From an uncultured Flavobacteriales bacterium (GTDB lineage Bacteria; Bacteroidota; Bacteroidia; Flavobacteriales_D; Sanyastnellaceae): a DNA stretch of 64,000 nucleotides. Positions 53,011 to 59,780 of this stretch are shown piece after piece. The position numbers were made by a program, and so were the translations under genes. Below the pieces are notes generated by a model. The model saw nothing but the letters and a program-made list of their open reading frames with translations. It was not told the origin of the DNA and made no database searches. Numbering within the stretch: the stretch's first letter is position 1; the number at the start of each line of letters is the position of its first letter. The stretch covers positions 1 to 64,000 of the forward strand of contig CALLLH010000023.1 of assembly GCA_938082505.1 (NCBI GenBank), written 5' to 3'.

Positions 53011-55062
53011 TCAGGCCGCGTTCTCGTCCGCATCAGAAGCGGTTTCCGCTCCCGCGGATTCGTCAGCTCCACCAGTCGGCTCACCGGAAACATCCGGTTC
53101 TCCGGCTGGCTCTGCACCAGCCTCTTCTTCCACCTCCACGGATTGGGCACCGACTTGAACCCCATCCAAAACTTTGGACTCCCATTGGCGTTCACCGAGC
53201 AGTTCCACGAGATCCTCCTTGAAGAGGACCTCCCGCTCCAACAGCCGCTCTGCGAGGGCGGCCAATTTGTCCTTGTGCAATTCGAGAATTTCACGGGCCT
53301 TGGCATAGGCCCGCTCGATGATGGCACCCGACTCCTCATCAATCACCCGAGCGGTTTCCTCACTGTAGGGCTTGGTGAAGGTCGCCTCCGCCCTGGGGTC
53401 GTAAAAACTCCGGTTGCCGATGCGCTTGTTGAGTCCGTAGACGCTGACCATGGCATAGGCTTGCTTGGTGACTTTCTCGAGGTCGCTCAAGGCCCCCGTC
53501 GAAATCTTGCCGAAGGTCAGTTCTTCCGCTGCACGCCCCCCAAGGGCAGCGCACATCTCGTCGAAGATCTGCTCGGTGGTGGTGATGTGGCGTTCCTCCG
53601 GCAGGTACCAGGCGGCACCCAGCGACTGGCCACGGGGCACAATGGTCACCTTGACGAGGGGCGAAGCATGCTCGAGCATCCAGCTGACGGTGGCGTGACC
53701 TGCCTCGTGGAACGCAATGGTCCGCTTCTCCCCAACCGTGATGAGTTTGTTCTTCTTCTCGAGCCCTCCAACCACGCGGTCCACGGCATTCAGAAAATCC
53801 TGCTTGCCGACTTTTCCCGCGTCTCGCCTTGCGGCAATCAGGGCGGCCTCATTGCAGATGTTCGCAATGTCGGCTCCGCTGAATCCAGGGGTCTGGCGCG
53901 CGAGGAAGTCCACGTCAATCGTTTCGTCTTTCTTCAACGGACGGAGGTGCACCTTGAAAATGGCCTCCCGCTCCTTCAAATCGGGCATGTCCACATAAAT
54001 CTGTCGGTCGAAACGGCCCGCCCGCATCAAGGCACTGTCGAGGATGTCGGCGCGGTTCGTCGCCGCAAGGATGATGACACCGCTGTTCGTGCCGAAACCA
54101 TCCATCTCGGTAAGCAGCTGATTCAAGGTGTTCTCCCGCTCGTCATTGGACCCGATGCTCGCGTTTTTCCCACGGGCACGTCCCACGGCATCGATCTCAT
54201 CGATGAAGACGATGCAGGGGCTCTTGTCCTTGGCCTGCTTGAAGAGGTCGCGCACCCGGCTCGCCCCCACCCCGACAAACATCTCCACGAAGTCGGAGCC
54301 GCTCAAAGAGAAGAAAGGCACCTGTGCCTCGCCCGCGACAGCCTTTGCAAGGAGGGTCTTGCCCGTCCCCGGTGGGCCCACCAACAGGGCGCCTTTAGGA
54401 ATCTTCGCGCCCAGGTCCGTGTACTTCTGCGGATTCTTGAGGAACTCCACAATCTCGGCCAACTCCTCCTTGGCCCCTTCCAGTCCCGCTACGTCCTTGA
54501 AATTGATCTGGGTGGAGTTTTCCTTGTCGAACAGCTGGGCTTTCGATTTGCCGATGTTGAAAATCTGCCCACCGGCCCCTCCTCCGCCACCGAGACGGCG
54601 CATCAGGACCATCCACACCCCCACCATGACGGCGAGGACGATGATGTAGAAGACCAGCTGTTGTCCCCATTCATTGGGCCGCTCGTATCGGACCTCCACT
54701 GCGTCATCGGCCGATAGCTGATCCAACCGGTCAATGTTCTTTTCGGAAGGCGGAATCTCGACCATCAGATCAGCGCCCTTGAACAAGCCCCCTCCCAATG
54801 GACTTTGGGGGCTGTCCTTCATGATGGAGTCACGGGCAGCATCCGTATACCAGGCCTCTGCCATCATGCCGTTGTGGCTGATCCTGCTGATTTCACCACG
54901 CTCGGCCTTGCCGACCAATTCCTGAAAGCCCACGGTACCCGAACCTCCACCGGCTCCACCCGAGAGAATCATGGCGATCAGCAAGGCCCCTATGCCCGCA
55001 TACACCCAATAGAAATTGAAGTTTGGCCGTGCCTGCTTCTTGTCGTTCTGTTGCTCTTCCAT
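53011..55062 (-). CDS. ftsH: ATP-dependent zinc metalloprotease FtsH
   Basis: 683 aa. Two helices (about 20-38 and 136-156) bracket a periplasmic part. The AAA+ module has Walker A GPPGTGKT (229-236), Walker B IVFIDEID near 284-291, SRH-type [19 protein letters not shown], and the zinc protease motif HEAGH (452-456). The last about 50 residues are acidic and rich in Ala/Glu/Asp, longer than usual. It degrades membrane and cytoplasmic proteins, including unassembled complexes. Transcription runs ftsH-DUF2007-cdsA-psd. Confidence 0.97.
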
Positions 55063-55253: not shown

Positions 55254-56849
55254 GTGTGGACTTCCGTCACCATCCATCCCCGACACCAGCTGACCCCCCG
55301 ATCGGTAGAGGTCGCGGTATTGCCGAGGGTGGGAGAAATCGAATTTTCCGCCGGGCAGTTCGTCGTGCTCGAGTTGAATCTGGGTTCCCAGGTCAAGCGG
55401 AGCGCATTCTCCATCGTCCGACAGGAAGGCAAAGGGGTCATCCTCGGGGTCAAGCAAAACGGAGACTGGGGCATCTCCGCTTTCCTGAACCAGCTTGAGA
55501 AGCCCGTCAAGGCGAGCATGGCTGGCCCTTTTGGTGCCTTCACCCTCCTTCCAGACCGCCACAACCATGTCTTCATCACCGGGGGAAGCGGCATCACCCC
55601 GGTCCGGAGTCTGCTGGACAAGCTGTTTGACCAAGGCAACATTCCCACCATCATCTACGCCAATGCTGCGCCGGAGGAGGCCATGTACGGTGCCTCATTC
55701 CGCAAACTGGATGAACGGGGATACATCCGTCTGATTGAAGTCTTCGACAGGAAAATTGAAGCGGCCATCGGCGCCCACCAAAAGGAGGGCACGGCATACT
55801 ACGTATCGGGGCCACCGGGCTTGGTCAATGCTGCCCTTGACAATCTCAAGGCCTTGGGGATTGACGATGCGGCCATCACCACCGAGAAGTACGGATTGGA
55901 CATGGGTCAGATCTCCTCCAGTTCGCATGCATTCTACTGGAAGGGCTGGTGGAGTGGCAAACAAAAGGTCAGCGCCCTGCAGGGGATGAGCATGCTGCAC
56001 GCAGCGCGGCGTGAAGGAATCTCCATCCCCAGTGCCTGCGAGGTGGGGGTATGCGGGGCCTGTGAAGTCCACTTGAAATCCGGTCGGGTCCTCTGCGGAA
56101 TGAAGGAGGAAAGCGCTGGGGCCAACATCCTCTCGTGCATCAGCCAGCCCCTGGATGGACCGGCTCCTGTCATCCGTCCTGCGCGAAGGGGCCGCGCAGA
56201 AATCGTCAGCTTGGCCCTGGTCTGTGCTGCACTCTCCTTGGGCTTCTGGAATTTACCCCCCGGCAGTGGATGGAAGGCAAAAGGGGAAATGAACACGGGA
56301 CACGACGGCCTTGAATGCAATGCTTGCCACAAGGAAGCACCCGGTTCGATGCGACAGCAGTTGGGGCACAACGCCAAGACATTGTTGGGCATGCACGATG
56401 GCGATTGGGTGCCCGTCGGATTTTCCGTCGTGGACAACGCGGCATGCATGCAATGTCACGACAGACCCAATGACACGCACCCCGTATCCCGCTTTCTCGA
56501 ACCCCGTTTTGCCGACCAACGGAATTTGCTTTCCGTCCATGAATGCAATGGGTGCCACGGCGAGCACAATGGAGTGAGGGTCGCCAATACGGGAGCAGAA
56601 TTCTGCCAACAATGCCATGGCGACATGGAGGTCTCTTTCGACCCCATCACACCGAGCCACGCAGAATTGCTGGAAGCCGAATCTTGGGAAACCTGCATGC
56701 AATGCCACGATTTCCATGGAAACCACATCGCCGAAGTACCCCGGAATTTGAGGGACGCGATTGAATCAGAGGCCATCCTCCGGTATTTGGACGGGGGTGA
56801 AGATCCGTACAGCAGCACCAAAGAATACAACGCCGAATCAGCACCATGA
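55254..56849 (+). CDS. NAD(P)H reductase-[2Fe-2S]-membrane-pentahaem cytochrome c fusion
   Basis: 531 aa from GTG 55254; an upstream in-frame extension exists but no better start. Residues about 1-230 form a ferredoxin-NADP+ reductase-type module (FAD site near RSAFSIVR, NAD site FITGGSGITPVRSLL at 107-121, GPPGLVNAAL). The [2Fe-2S] domain has C262, C267, C270 (CX4CX2C) and C295. A basic RPARRGR then one helix (about 317-333) cross the membrane. After it come five CXXCH motifs: C355, C398, C431, C451 and C481. Haem sites must be periplasmic, the flavin domain cytoplasmic. I know no standard protein with this architecture. Overlaps the next gene by 4 bp. Confidence 0.85.
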   Translation: MWTSVTIHPRHQLTPRSVEVAVLPRVGEIEFSAGQFVVLELNLGSQVKRSAFSIVRQEGKGVILGVKQNGDWGISAFLNQLEKPVKASMAGPFGAFTLLPDRHNHVFITGGSGITPVRSLLDKLFDQGNIPTIIYANAAPEEAMYGASFRKLDERGYIRLIEVFDRKIEAAIGAHQKEGTAYYVSGPPGLVNAALDNLKALGIDDAAITTEKYGLDMGQISSSSHAFYWKGWWSGKQKVSALQGMSMLHAARREGISIPSACEVGVCGACEVHLKSGRVLCGMKEESAGANILSCISQPLDGPAPVIRPARRGRAEIVSLALVCAALSLGFWNLPPGSGWKAKGEMNTGHDGLECNACHKEAPGSMRQQLGHNAKTLLGMHDGDWVPVGFSVVDNAACMQCHDRPNDTHPVSRFLEPRFADQRNLLSVHECNGCHGEHNGVRVANTGAEFCQQCHGDMEVSFDPITPSHAELLEAESWETCMQCHDFHGNHIAEVPRNLRDAIESEAILRYLDGGEDPYSSTKEYNAESAP

Positions 56850-58012
56850 TCCGTTCGCTCAGCCTCTTACTCTCCATGATGCCCGGCATCGCCTTTGCCG
56901 CGTCCGGTGAGGGAGACACGACTTTGACCCTGAATGCGGAACTGCGTGTCCGTTCGGAATGGCGGGATGGATACAGACTGTCCTCAACTTCCGAAGCGGA
57001 AGGAGCATTGACCACAGTCCAGCGGAACAGGATCGGCATCAGCGGCTCTTGGAATCGCCTCTCATTCAAGGCCGAATTCCAGGATGTCCGGAATTATGGT
57101 CAGCCCGGAGGAAACACCCAGGGCAACGCAGGCGCAGCGGAAGCATGGGGAGCTTACCGTTTCAGTCCATCCCTGTCGGTCAAGGTCGGACGACAGATGG
57201 TCGACTTCGATGGAGGCCGGGTGATCGGTGCTGCCAATTGGGCGAATCCCGGACGTTTTCTGGATGGTATACGCCTCGATCGAAAGGGGAAATCCAGCCG
57301 GACGTCCATCCTCTACACTTGGGATGAGTTGGCGGAAACGTCGCGCTTCATTGCCCACCATGAATGGCGATTTGACCGCCACCGATTGAGCCTCTTCTCG
57401 TTCGACCAGAAAAGCAACACGGAATTCCAGGCATTCACAACCGGATTGACCGGTTACTGGGCCTTGGGCGATCAGGGGTCCATCCGGACGGAAACCCACC
57501 TTCAATGGCAGGAAGGAGCGGGTTCCGGACACCTCATCGCTTGCGAAGCCCAGCGCAAGGGAAAGGATGGCGGCGTCTGGAAGATCGGTGGCGACCTGTT
57601 GTCGGACAGCCGCAGCGGGCAGGCCTTTCAGCCCCTGCTGGGCACCAACCACAAATTCTACGGTTGGATGGACCATTTCTATGTCGGCGCGTCAACGGAT
57701 GGCCTGACCGACCTGCGTCTGACGAGACAGTTCCCGATCTATGCCAAGCGCCTGCAAGGAGGCGCCACCCTCCACCATTTCCGAACCTACGGCGGCGATG
57801 CCCTGCTGGGCAATGAGCTCGACCTCTGGTTGACCGGTCAGGAAAAGGAAGGCATACGCTGGTTTGCGGGATGGTCGTTGTTCGACCCCACCACCACCCA
57901 CATCGATCGCCAAGGCCACCTGCCTATCGAATCGTCCGGGGATGCAGCAGAACACCTGCAACAATGGGGCTGGGTTTCCATCCAAATCAACCCTTCAATC
58001 GTGCTGCGATGA
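56846..58012 (+). CDS. Outer-membrane beta-barrel (alginate-export/porin-like)
   Basis: 388 aa. A signal peptide (MIRSLSLLLSMMPGIAFA) is followed by alternating amphipathic strands to the end (SFKAEFQDVRNYGQ, AWGAYRFSPSLSVKVGRQM, SILYTWDELAE, RLSLFSFDQK, TGYWALGDQG), ending in WVSIQINPSIVLR. The pattern near GRQMVDFDGGRVIGAANW recalls alginate-export-type porins. It lies in a redox operon, so it might form a channel around, or beside, the cytochromes, as MtrB-type barrels do; this is inference. It starts within the last codons of the fusion gene (ATGA). Confidence 0.78.
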   Translation: MIRSLSLLLSMMPGIAFAASGEGDTTLTLNAELRVRSEWRDGYRLSSTSEAEGALTTVQRNRIGISGSWNRLSFKAEFQDVRNYGQPGGNTQGNAGAAEAWGAYRFSPSLSVKVGRQMVDFDGGRVIGAANWANPGRFLDGIRLDRKGKSSRTSILYTWDELAETSRFIAHHEWRFDRHRLSLFSFDQKSNTEFQAFTTGLTGYWALGDQGSIRTETHLQWQEGAGSGHLIACEAQRKGKDGGVWKIGGDLLSDSRSGQAFQPLLGTNHKFYGWMDHFYVGASTDGLTDLRLTRQFPIYAKRLQGGATLHHFRTYGGDALLGNELDLWLTGQEKEGIRWFAGWSLFDPTTTHIDRQGHLPIESSGDAAEHLQQWGWVSIQINPSIVLR

Positions 58013-58848
58013 ATTCCCCGTCACGACCTGTCCGCTTCTGGACCTTCACCATTCTGGGCGGGGCTGCCGTTCTGACCTACCTCTTCGCCTCGGCGCCCGT
58101 GCCACTCGATTCAGGCGAAAAAGAACGCATGACCATGTCAGCGCAGGAAGCCTTGTCGCTGCTCGCCCATGAAAACGACATGACCCGGACGCTCTTCACC
58201 AAAGCCATCGTCGGCAAGGGAAAACAGCAGGGGTTGGCGTTCAGTGAGGATTGGGCCGAGCAACACGTCATTGCCGGCCCGTTGCCGGCCCTGTTCCTGA
58301 GGGGCGTAGCCCTTCACCTGGCCGGAACTGACGTCCCATTGAGCCTGTTCCTCGGTTCAGATTTCCCGATTGAAGGGTCCAACCTCTTCACCGGAAAGCA
58401 AGCCGAGGCATTTGCGGCCATGCGCAGCGACTCCCTTCCGAAGCATTTTCAGGATCCCGGCTCCGGAAGCCAGGTGAGCATGTTTCCTGATTTCGCGAGT
58501 GCCGGGCCCTGCGTCAGTTGCCACAATGCGCACGAACAGTCTCCAAAAGTCGACTGGGAATTGGGCGACATCATGGGGGCGACCACGTGGTCCTACCCCC
58601 ATGATTCCGTCACCACCGATGGGTTCATGGCCATGCTCGGCGCATACCGGGCCGGCGTATCCGTTGTGTGGTCCCAATACCTCGAAGAACTCGAACAATT
58701 GGACCCCGCGTCCAAGCCAGCGATCGGACCAGCCTGGCCATCCACCGGCCTGTTCATTCCGGACTATGCCACCCTGCGGGATTCCATCGACGACCTATCC
58801 GGGCCTCATATCCTGTCCCGGCTCGCACAGCGCACCGCAGTCAGATGA
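58009..58848 (+). CDS. Membrane-anchored monohaem protein, Tll0287/DUF3365 type
   Basis: 279 aa. An N-terminal helix (FWTFTILGGAAVLTYLF) anchors it. The periplasmic part contains one haem c motif, CVSCH at 168-172, in the block ASAGPCVSCHNAHEQSPK followed by DWELGDIMGATTW. That block is the hallmark of the Tll0287-like (DUF3365) domain, seen in cyanobacterial cytochromes and in heme sensor proteins. No kinase or methyl-accepting domain follows, so it is not a full sensor. It likely shuttles or stores electrons. 4-bp overlaps on both sides. Confidence 0.82.
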   Translation: MNSPSRPVRFWTFTILGGAAVLTYLFASAPVPLDSGEKERMTMSAQEALSLLAHENDMTRTLFTKAIVGKGKQQGLAFSEDWAEQHVIAGPLPALFLRGVALHLAGTDVPLSLFLGSDFPIEGSNLFTGKQAEAFAAMRSDSLPKHFQDPGSGSQVSMFPDFASAGPCVSCHNAHEQSPKVDWELGDIMGATTWSYPHDSVTTDGFMAMLGAYRAGVSVVWSQYLEELEQLDPASKPAIGPAWPSTGLFIPDYATLRDSIDDLSGPHILSRLAQRTAVR

Positions 58849-59303
58849 GAAATTTATCGCGGTATCTCGCATGGGCGGCAGCGGGCATACTCATCCTCGG
58901 TTCGCTGCTCGGCCTGGACGAAAAGTCCTGGCTTGCCTTCCAATCTGAAGACACCTACCAGGTGACCACCGGCATCATCATCATGATGCTCGTCCTGTTT
59001 CAATGGGGGCTGACCTTGGGGCGTGTCATCTTCCAGCGCACAGGCAGCCAATGGGGCCGCTGGATCGACTGGCATCTCCGCGTCGCCATCCTGCTCCCGA
59101 TTGCCGTCCTGGCCCACAGCCTCACGCTGGGTTGGGGCCTGCTCGCCGCATTGCCCCTCTCGCTGCTCGGCGCGGCCCATTTCGGCTCCTTGATGAACGG
59201 GCATGACAAGATCAAGGAATACCTGCCTTACCACGTGGGCCTCTCAGCCTTGACACTTGCCCTCGCCCTCGTTCACACCTACACGGTGCTCATCTTCCGC
59301 TGA
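58845..59303 (+). CDS. Small dihaem cytochrome b-like membrane protein
   Basis: 152 aa, about four helices. Two helices each carry His pairs with 13 residues between: H77 and H91 (in WHLRVAILLPIAVLAHS) and H130 and H144 (in YHVGLSALTLALALVHT). The H-X13-H spacing occurs in cytochrome b of bc1 and in ferric-reductase-type proteins, where each pair gives one ligand to each of two haems. Hence it may carry electrons through the membrane. Haem binding is inferred from spacing; no flavin or NAD site is present. It overlaps the previous gene by 4 bp and its end faces rsfS, 3 bp apart. Confidence 0.75.
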   Translation: MRNLSRYLAWAAAGILILGSLLGLDEKSWLAFQSEDTYQVTTGIIIMMLVLFQWGLTLGRVIFQRTGSQWGRWIDWHLRVAILLPIAVLAHSLTLGWGLLAALPLSLLGAAHFGSLMNGHDKIKEYLPYHVGLSALTLALALVHTYTVLIFR

Positions 59304-59306
59304 TCC

Positions 59307-59780
59307 TCAGTACTCGGGGAAGTCCTCCGGGTCGGGGGCGCGGTCCTCAGGGTCGGGCAACCGCTGCTGTTGCGCATCTGCCCACAATTCCTCCAGGCTA
59401 TAATGGCCCCTCCAATCCTTGTGGAAAATATGGACCACAACGTCCGAGTAGTCGAGCAGGGCCCATTGGCCACCCCTCAACCCCTGCTTCGTCCAGGGAG
59501 ACTCATCATGGGCTTTTTCGGTGAATTCCTCCACGCTGCGCGCAATGGCCTCCACCTGCGTGTTCGATTGTCCCTCACAAATGATGAACCGCGCGGCCAC
59601 ACTGTTTTGAATGGTCCCGAAATCGACGATGCAAATGTCCTTTCCCTTGACCTCCTGTATCCCCTGCACAATGGCGGTAACCAGAGCATCAGTGGAGGGA
59701 CCGCCCGTGCGATCTGGGGCCTCCCGTGGGACAGTCGCGTAGGTTCGCGGATCGGGTTGTGCTTGCGGTTCTTCCACCAT
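59307..59780 (-). CDS. rsfS: Ribosomal silencing factor RsfS
   Basis: 157 aa. The RsfS core (about 28-140) shows ALVTAIVQGIQEVKGKDI, NSVAARFIICEGQSNTQVEA, GGQWALLDYSDVVVHIF and YSLEELWADA. It binds uL14 on the 50S subunit and blocks subunit joining when nutrients are short. N- and C-terminal tails are Pro/Asp-rich and beyond the usual fold. In many Bacteroidota I recall rsfS just upstream of ftsH; here a plus-strand redox operon lies between them. An ATTTTAG-like -7 element is only 5 bp before the ATG. Confidence 0.93.
   Translation of the reverse strand: MVEEPQAQPDPRTYATVPREAPDRTGGPSTDALVTAIVQGIQEVKGKDICIVDFGTIQNSVAARFIICEGQSNTQVEAIARSVEEFTEKAHDESPWTKQGLRGGQWALLDYSDVVVHIFHKDWRGHYSLEELWADAQQQRLPDPEDRAPDPEDFPEY

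Follow-up and report, generated by a model that had tools for sequence, protein, structure and literature searches.

We report that four adjacent plus-strand genes at positions 55254-59303 of the window, a 64,000-nucleotide stretch of DNA from an uncultured Flavobacteriales bacterium, form a redox cassette. Numbered 1-4 along the strand, they encode a flavin/[2Fe-2S]/pentahaem fusion protein, an outer-membrane beta-barrel, a membrane-anchored monohaem protein of the DUF3365 family and a small membrane protein with two histidine pairs. With a probability of about 0.62, we consider the cassette to be a transmembrane NAD(P)H:periplasmic-cytochrome oxidoreductase. The reductase half of the fusion would oxidise NAD(P)H in the cytoplasm and pass electrons through flavin adenine dinucleotide (FAD) to the [2Fe-2S] cluster. 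From there they would enter the gene 4 protein, with two stacked b haems, and leave it on the periplasmic side for the pentahaem domain, held by the fusion beside the same membrane site. The pentahaem domain would then reduce the anchored DUF3365 haem protein, another periplasmic acceptor, or both. A first-pass annotation had proposed this order of carriers, ending in the pentahaem and monohaem domains; it is still the best reading and is compatible with the invariant cysteines and histidines described below. Together with it we infer haem binding by gene 4 and the pairing of its histidines, the outward direction of flow, complex formation among the proteins and a periplasmic acceptor.

The open reading frame coordinates confirm the four-gene arrangement, every junction being a 4-bp overlap. 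The fusion itself is real. The possibility that it is a frameshift or an assembly join, raised at the outset, is ruled out: it occupies a single open frame and is complete in 15 of the 17 other genomes that carry it, and the two shorter cases are explained by a contig edge (G277) and a run of N (G265). The domain order, a FAD/NAD domain followed by a plant-type ferredoxin, is that of the PaaE/Hcr type. Pfam scores pass for NAD_binding_1 (26.2 bits, cut-off 22) and Fer2 (42.5 bits, cut-off 21), while FAD_binding_6 is weak (13.4 bits, under its cut-off of 21.1). Because the best NCBIfam match, PaaE, scores 75.6 bits, far under its cut-off of 420.8, the fusion is not PaaE itself. The ferredoxin cysteines are invariant in the aligned rows (C262, C267 and C270 in 17 of 17, C295 in 18 of 18), all five CXXCH motifs are kept in 18 of 18, and the hydrophobic helix is present in all 16 fusion rows scanned; some rows are incomplete, G277 being split over two contigs, G265 having its N-run inside the fusion and G080 being cut. 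The FNR module, [2Fe-2S] site, helix and five haem motifs read from the window are thus borne out by the relatives.

Six further histidines of the pentahaem domain (350, 409, 438, 469, 488 and 491) are invariant in 19 of 19 rows, Flammeovirga included. Since six would suffice for five bis-His haems, this domain looks like an electron wire. NrfA, the pentahaem cytochrome c nitrite reductase family, is absent from the Pfam matches of the fusion at E <= 1 and from the best 25 of its 34 NCBIfam matches. The fusion keeps a hydrophobic helix like the N-terminal stretch of the separate pentahaem protein in Flammeovirga, which places the reductase on the cytoplasmic side of the membrane and the c haems on the periplasmic side. 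The genome of the window contains two matches to the c-haem assembly family PF01578.

Gene 4 carries two H-X13-H pairs, and the four histidines and their spacing are kept in 19 of 19 aligned rows, so the conservation expected of them was found. These residues could hold two b haems. The earlier description of the protein as four-helical is doubtful, since a hydrophobic stretch of 40 residues (78-117) makes five helices more likely. A 19-residue hydrophobicity scan gives five segments in 5 of 19 full-length rows, the remainder showing three or four, and the loop charges (K+R/D+E per sequence, from the N-terminus: 1.9/0.1, 1.2/2.7, 2.8/1.2, 0.1/0.1 and 2.4/1.7; 18 rows, L066 left out, loops placed by hand) fit five helices with the N-terminus inside. 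With five helices both His-bearing helices would be parallel, as they are in NOX and cytochrome b, with H77/H130 on the inner side and H91/H144 on the outer side. Remote similarity is found to Ferric_reduct, for which 14 of 18 members reach E <= 1 and the lowest E is 1.9e-4, and DUF4405 is matched weakly by 5 of 18 (best E 0.18). The gene 4 protein probably works like a ferric reductase domain (FRD) protein; we do not claim that it is one.

The genes form one system. Among 299 genomes drawn from the order, the fusion occurs in 18, our own included, which all fall into three genera within a single family (E <= 1e-20). Gene 4 occurs in 19 of 114 family genomes, namely the same 18 and G080, whose contig starts inside gene 4. 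DUF3365 and gene 4 accompany the fusion in 17 of 17 other genomes, on one contig in 16 and on two broken contigs in G277, and overlaps or short intergenic gaps recur among the relatives' cassettes. Between the fusion, DUF3365 and gene 4, pairwise distances show correlations of r 0.89-0.92, compared with 0.74-0.82 when the barrel is involved, values that shared descent alone raises. In a scan of 84,980-species contigs the sole query was the window protein, an approach limited to close relatives. The scan gave three Flavobacteriales matches (metagenome-assembled genomes MOX_bin5, UBA1995 and PL36313bin_11), probably identical to G199, G160 and G265 and therefore not extra evidence.

The same neighbours recur in another order. 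When the fusion was searched against 72,556 plasmid records, 525 matched, mostly on the reductase part judging by the ten matches listed, and one record covered at least 80% of the fusion: plasmid p1 of Flammeovirga kamogawensis, a member of the Cytophagales. Its gene order is hemA, globin, DUF3365, a 158-amino-acid protein, ferredoxin-NADP reductase and cytochrome c3. Both H-X13-H pairs recur in the 158-amino-acid protein, which aligns with the profile of gene 4 at an hhalign probability of 98.6. Identity to the window is highest for DUF3365 (46% with gene 3), followed by the cytochrome (42%, fusion residues 322-529), the reductase (26%, residues 24-300) and the membrane protein (24% with gene 4). 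The separate pentahaem protein, for which a PDB search gave no match, starts with a hydrophobic stretch, the counterpart of the membrane helix of the fusion. Since p1 carries reductase and pentahaem protein as separate adjacent genes, the fusion combines two partners that also occur unfused; being fused in one family and adjacent in another order is a classic sign that suggests partnership. No barrel is annotated in the p1 cluster, and because the rest is held in common, the core consists of DUF3365, the membrane protein, the reductase and the pentahaem protein. The globin, a single-domain protein, and hemA lie ahead of the cassette at this locus (L081, 4627-6374).

The gene 3 protein belongs to the Tll0287-like family (DUF3365; 25.5 bits, cut-off 24.1), whose profile is matched by 17 of 17 gene 3 members at E <= 0.1; a PDB search with the DUF3365 profile gave no match. 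The protein has an N-terminal anchor, and its CXXCH is invariant in 18 of 18 aligned rows. The axial cysteine of Tll0287 marks the redox-type subtype (Tll0287, P. putida) and not the whole family; outside the anchor region, the window protein and 17 relatives (one partial) hold no cysteine beyond CXXCH. The Flammeovirga protein has one additional cysteine, at a lipobox-like site. The gene 3 signature CVxCHNxH...K.(D/N)W is shared with a chemoreceptor and a cyclase, and the protein resembles sensor-type members. It differs from known haem Cache proteins in having neither a signalling part nor the axial cysteine, in its conserved C-terminal extension and in its operon linkage to an NAD(P)H chain. 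In the part of PMC12889525 on which we draw, a member without the axial cysteine bound nitric oxide (NO) tightly and a stand-alone member with Cys ligation showed the behaviour of a redox protein; the gene 3 protein, Cys-less, without a signalling part and wired to NAD(P)H, would fit neither class cleanly. It could be a terminal enzyme or a carrier. One specific form of the former, which we regard as rather unlikely, is that this sensor-type haem Cache, with an open haem position, was recruited to reduce NO, peroxide, nitrite or a similar compound in the periplasm, powered directly by NAD(P)H over a dedicated membrane wire that bypasses quinones.

The barrel (Alginate_exp, 26.6 bits, cut-off 25.2) is accessory and not core, as it is absent, moved or turned in relatives and lacking from the Flammeovirga cluster. 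It adjoins the core genes in 13 of the 17 other genomes with the fusion, in 11 of them as the gene between fusion and DUF3365, in G265 as the last gene and in G255 in divergent orientation. It is missing beside the set in G227, G160 and G098, and at G277 the locus is not resolved. G160 and G098 carry a barrel at another genomic site; none was found anywhere in G227 (78% complete) or G277 (60% complete). In the genus of the window the cassette is flanked by ftsH and rsfS wherever a border is visible. Direct neighbourhood of ftsH and rsfS, with 31-170 bp between the matches, is seen in G089, which belongs to the same genus, and in G143 and G049, which come from the other two genera and hold the cassette at a different chromosomal place. 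G281 (64% complete) gave no match to the fusion or to gene 4, and its ftsH-rsfS gap holds only a barrel. The core thus appears to move or to be lost as a unit, while the barrel can stay behind. The lone barrel of G281 (L089, 7462-8610; 55% identical to that of the window), located between rsfS and ftsH without the three redox genes, may reflect partial loss or an older, barrel-only state. Another barrel relative (35%) lies at 5226-6380 of L093, in G068; this genome is 98% complete, and searches with the fusion and with gene 4 gave no match in it.

These observations bear on the first-pass suggestion that electrons go on to an acceptor at or beyond the outer membrane. The barrel would then let the pentahaem domain pass electrons to ferric iron, humics or another acceptor outside the cell. 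The operon position of the barrel and its presence beside most relatives' cassettes speak for such extracellular electron transfer, as does a weak similarity of the pentahaem half to DmsE-type decahaem proteins (30.2 bits, cut-off 192.2). In MtrAB, a free periplasmic decahaem protein is inserted in its own barrel, and here too multihaem c protein and outer-membrane barrel share an operon. The cassette, however, has five haem motifs, an inner-membrane tether and a dispensable barrel of the Alginate_exp type, and so does not match the MtrAB conduit. A paired-CXXCH search of the window's own genome gave no other protein over the cut-off of that family, other multihaem families not being searched. 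Because the barrel is not core, being displaced, solitary or missing in the genomes listed above, a periplasmic acceptor is more likely, and we consider an outside acceptor improbable.

Less probable again is an inward current, in which periplasmic electrons enter through the haems of DUF3365 and the pentahaem domain and are passed to NAD(P)+ or to an enzyme in the cytoplasm. FNR/ferredoxin modules are able to run in both directions and sequence does not reveal the direction, but the scheme requires a low-potential periplasmic donor or an input of energy, and no donor enzyme was recognised among the four genes or in the Flammeovirga cluster, no genome-wide search having been made. We give as little credence to a redox or NO signalling relay, in which DUF3365 senses and the other proteins only set its redox state: the sensor-like haem signature, the missing axial cysteine, shared with the NO-binding protein in the part of PMC12889525 drawn on here, and the globin gene adjoining DUF3365 in Flammeovirga agree with it, but no kinase, HAMP, GGDEF or MCP family appears among the Pfam matches of the four proteins, and the globin was rejected as an NO-chemistry partner since none of 114 family genomes, many of them incomplete, matched it.

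Several points weigh against the cassette being a transmembrane oxidoreductase. The path is read from sequence, and the case draws on one family and one plasmid. No further carrier was found with the gene 4 or DUF3365 profiles in 296 genomes each or with DUF3365 in 395 genomes, and the fusion search of 395 phylum-level genomes gave, beyond our own, only two matches (G384 and G608), to the reductase part alone at 27% identity; these larger draws overlap and cover small parts of the phylum, and other phyla were sampled only via the plasmid collection. Given their 26% and 24% identity to Flammeovirga, the reductase and gene 4 could have been recruited separately. Gene 4 scores 11.6 bits against Ferric_reduct (PF01794; cut-off 28), its Flammeovirga counterpart scores 11.0 bits, and the gene 4 family profile matches no PDB chain. 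Two structure predictions are of low confidence (predicted local distance difference test, pLDDT, 59.5 and 43.5) and unusable for docking or haem geometry. The former, the sole model of gene 4, shows one 45-residue helix over the hydrophobic stretch and four helices in total. As for G384, its match was rejected as a cassette carrier. The locus (L067, 6877-8706), from another family of the class, encodes, judged by eye, a one-frame fusion of FNR and [2Fe-2S] ferredoxin to a fatty-acid-desaturase-like protein.

The layout has parallels in known systems, and the mechanism that we favour is that of MsrQ/Fre or NOX extended by a relay of c haems. In MsrQ with the flavin reductase Fre and MsrP, as presented in the part of PMC5676040 used here, a cytoplasmic flavoprotein, a small membrane b-haem protein and a periplasmic acceptor are combined as in our cassette. 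In contrast, the flavoprotein of the cassette adds [2Fe-2S] and a fused pentahaem domain, gene 4 does not reach the cut-off of Ferric_reduct, a cytochrome is the likely acceptor, and the cassette contains no molybdoprotein. The same part of PMC5676040 describes NOX and ferric reductases (FRD plus FNR), where a FAD/NAD(P)H module feeds two membrane haems held by four histidines. The cassette would share these elements, and differs in its separate polypeptides, extra [2Fe-2S] and multihaem c outer acceptor. DUF4405/FezC/PepSY-like membrane cytochromes, in the portion of PMC11334425 that concerns us, have conserved histidines, serve extracytosolic electron transfer and are tied to flavinylated proteins or ferrosomes, DUF4405 being described as six helices. 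Conserved membrane histidines and the weak DUF4405 matches recall gene 4; unlike these systems, as far as that portion describes them, the cassette has no flavinylation domain among its Pfam matches. The parts are of known types, and the gene combination was not found described in open-licence PMC literature, a result that hence does not prove novelty.

Table 1. Features of the cassette and its borders.
Feature	Position in window	Strand	Details
Gene 1, flavin/[2Fe-2S]/pentahaem fusion	55254..56849	+	531 amino acids, GTG start
FNR flavin/NAD(P)H module			fusion residues ~1-215
C-terminal [2Fe-2S] ferredoxin			fusion residues ~225-300; C262, C267, C270, C295
Inner-membrane helix linking reductase half to pentahaem half	56202..56258	+	fusion residues ~317-335; single hydrophobic segment of the fusion
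Pentahaem c domain			fusion residues ~345-492; CXXCH at 355, 398, 431, 451, 481
Gene 2, outer-membrane beta-barrel, Alginate_exp type, accessory	56846..58012	+	388 amino acids
Gene 3, membrane-anchored monohaem c protein, DUF3365/Tll0287 (haem Cache)	58009..58848	+	279 amino acids; CXXCH at residue 168; without axial Cys
Gene 4, small membrane protein, probably five helices, remotely ferric-reductase/MsrQ-like	58845..59303	+	152 amino acids; H77/H91 and H130/H144
ftsH, left border of cassette in the window's genus	53011..55062	-
rsfS, right border of cassette in the window's genus	59307..59780	-

In three genomes of genus g7 (L058, 9264-10938; L059, 3262-4934; L061, 2338-4661) a transporter-like gene, SulP-like by eye, follows the cassette. 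Between the two lies the gene for a small protein, which in L058 and L059 contains a GEE-rich acidic stretch.

To our knowledge, few quinone-independent routes are known for electrons to pass from NAD(P)H to haem proteins of the periplasm. The system can be tested in Flammeovirga kamogawensis strain YS10, which is listed as an isolate. If our reading is true, gene 4 would be a candidate for a very small dihaem b protein, and the cassette would provide a compact quinone-free route in which a single chain with FAD, [2Fe-2S] and five c haems spans both sides of the membrane.

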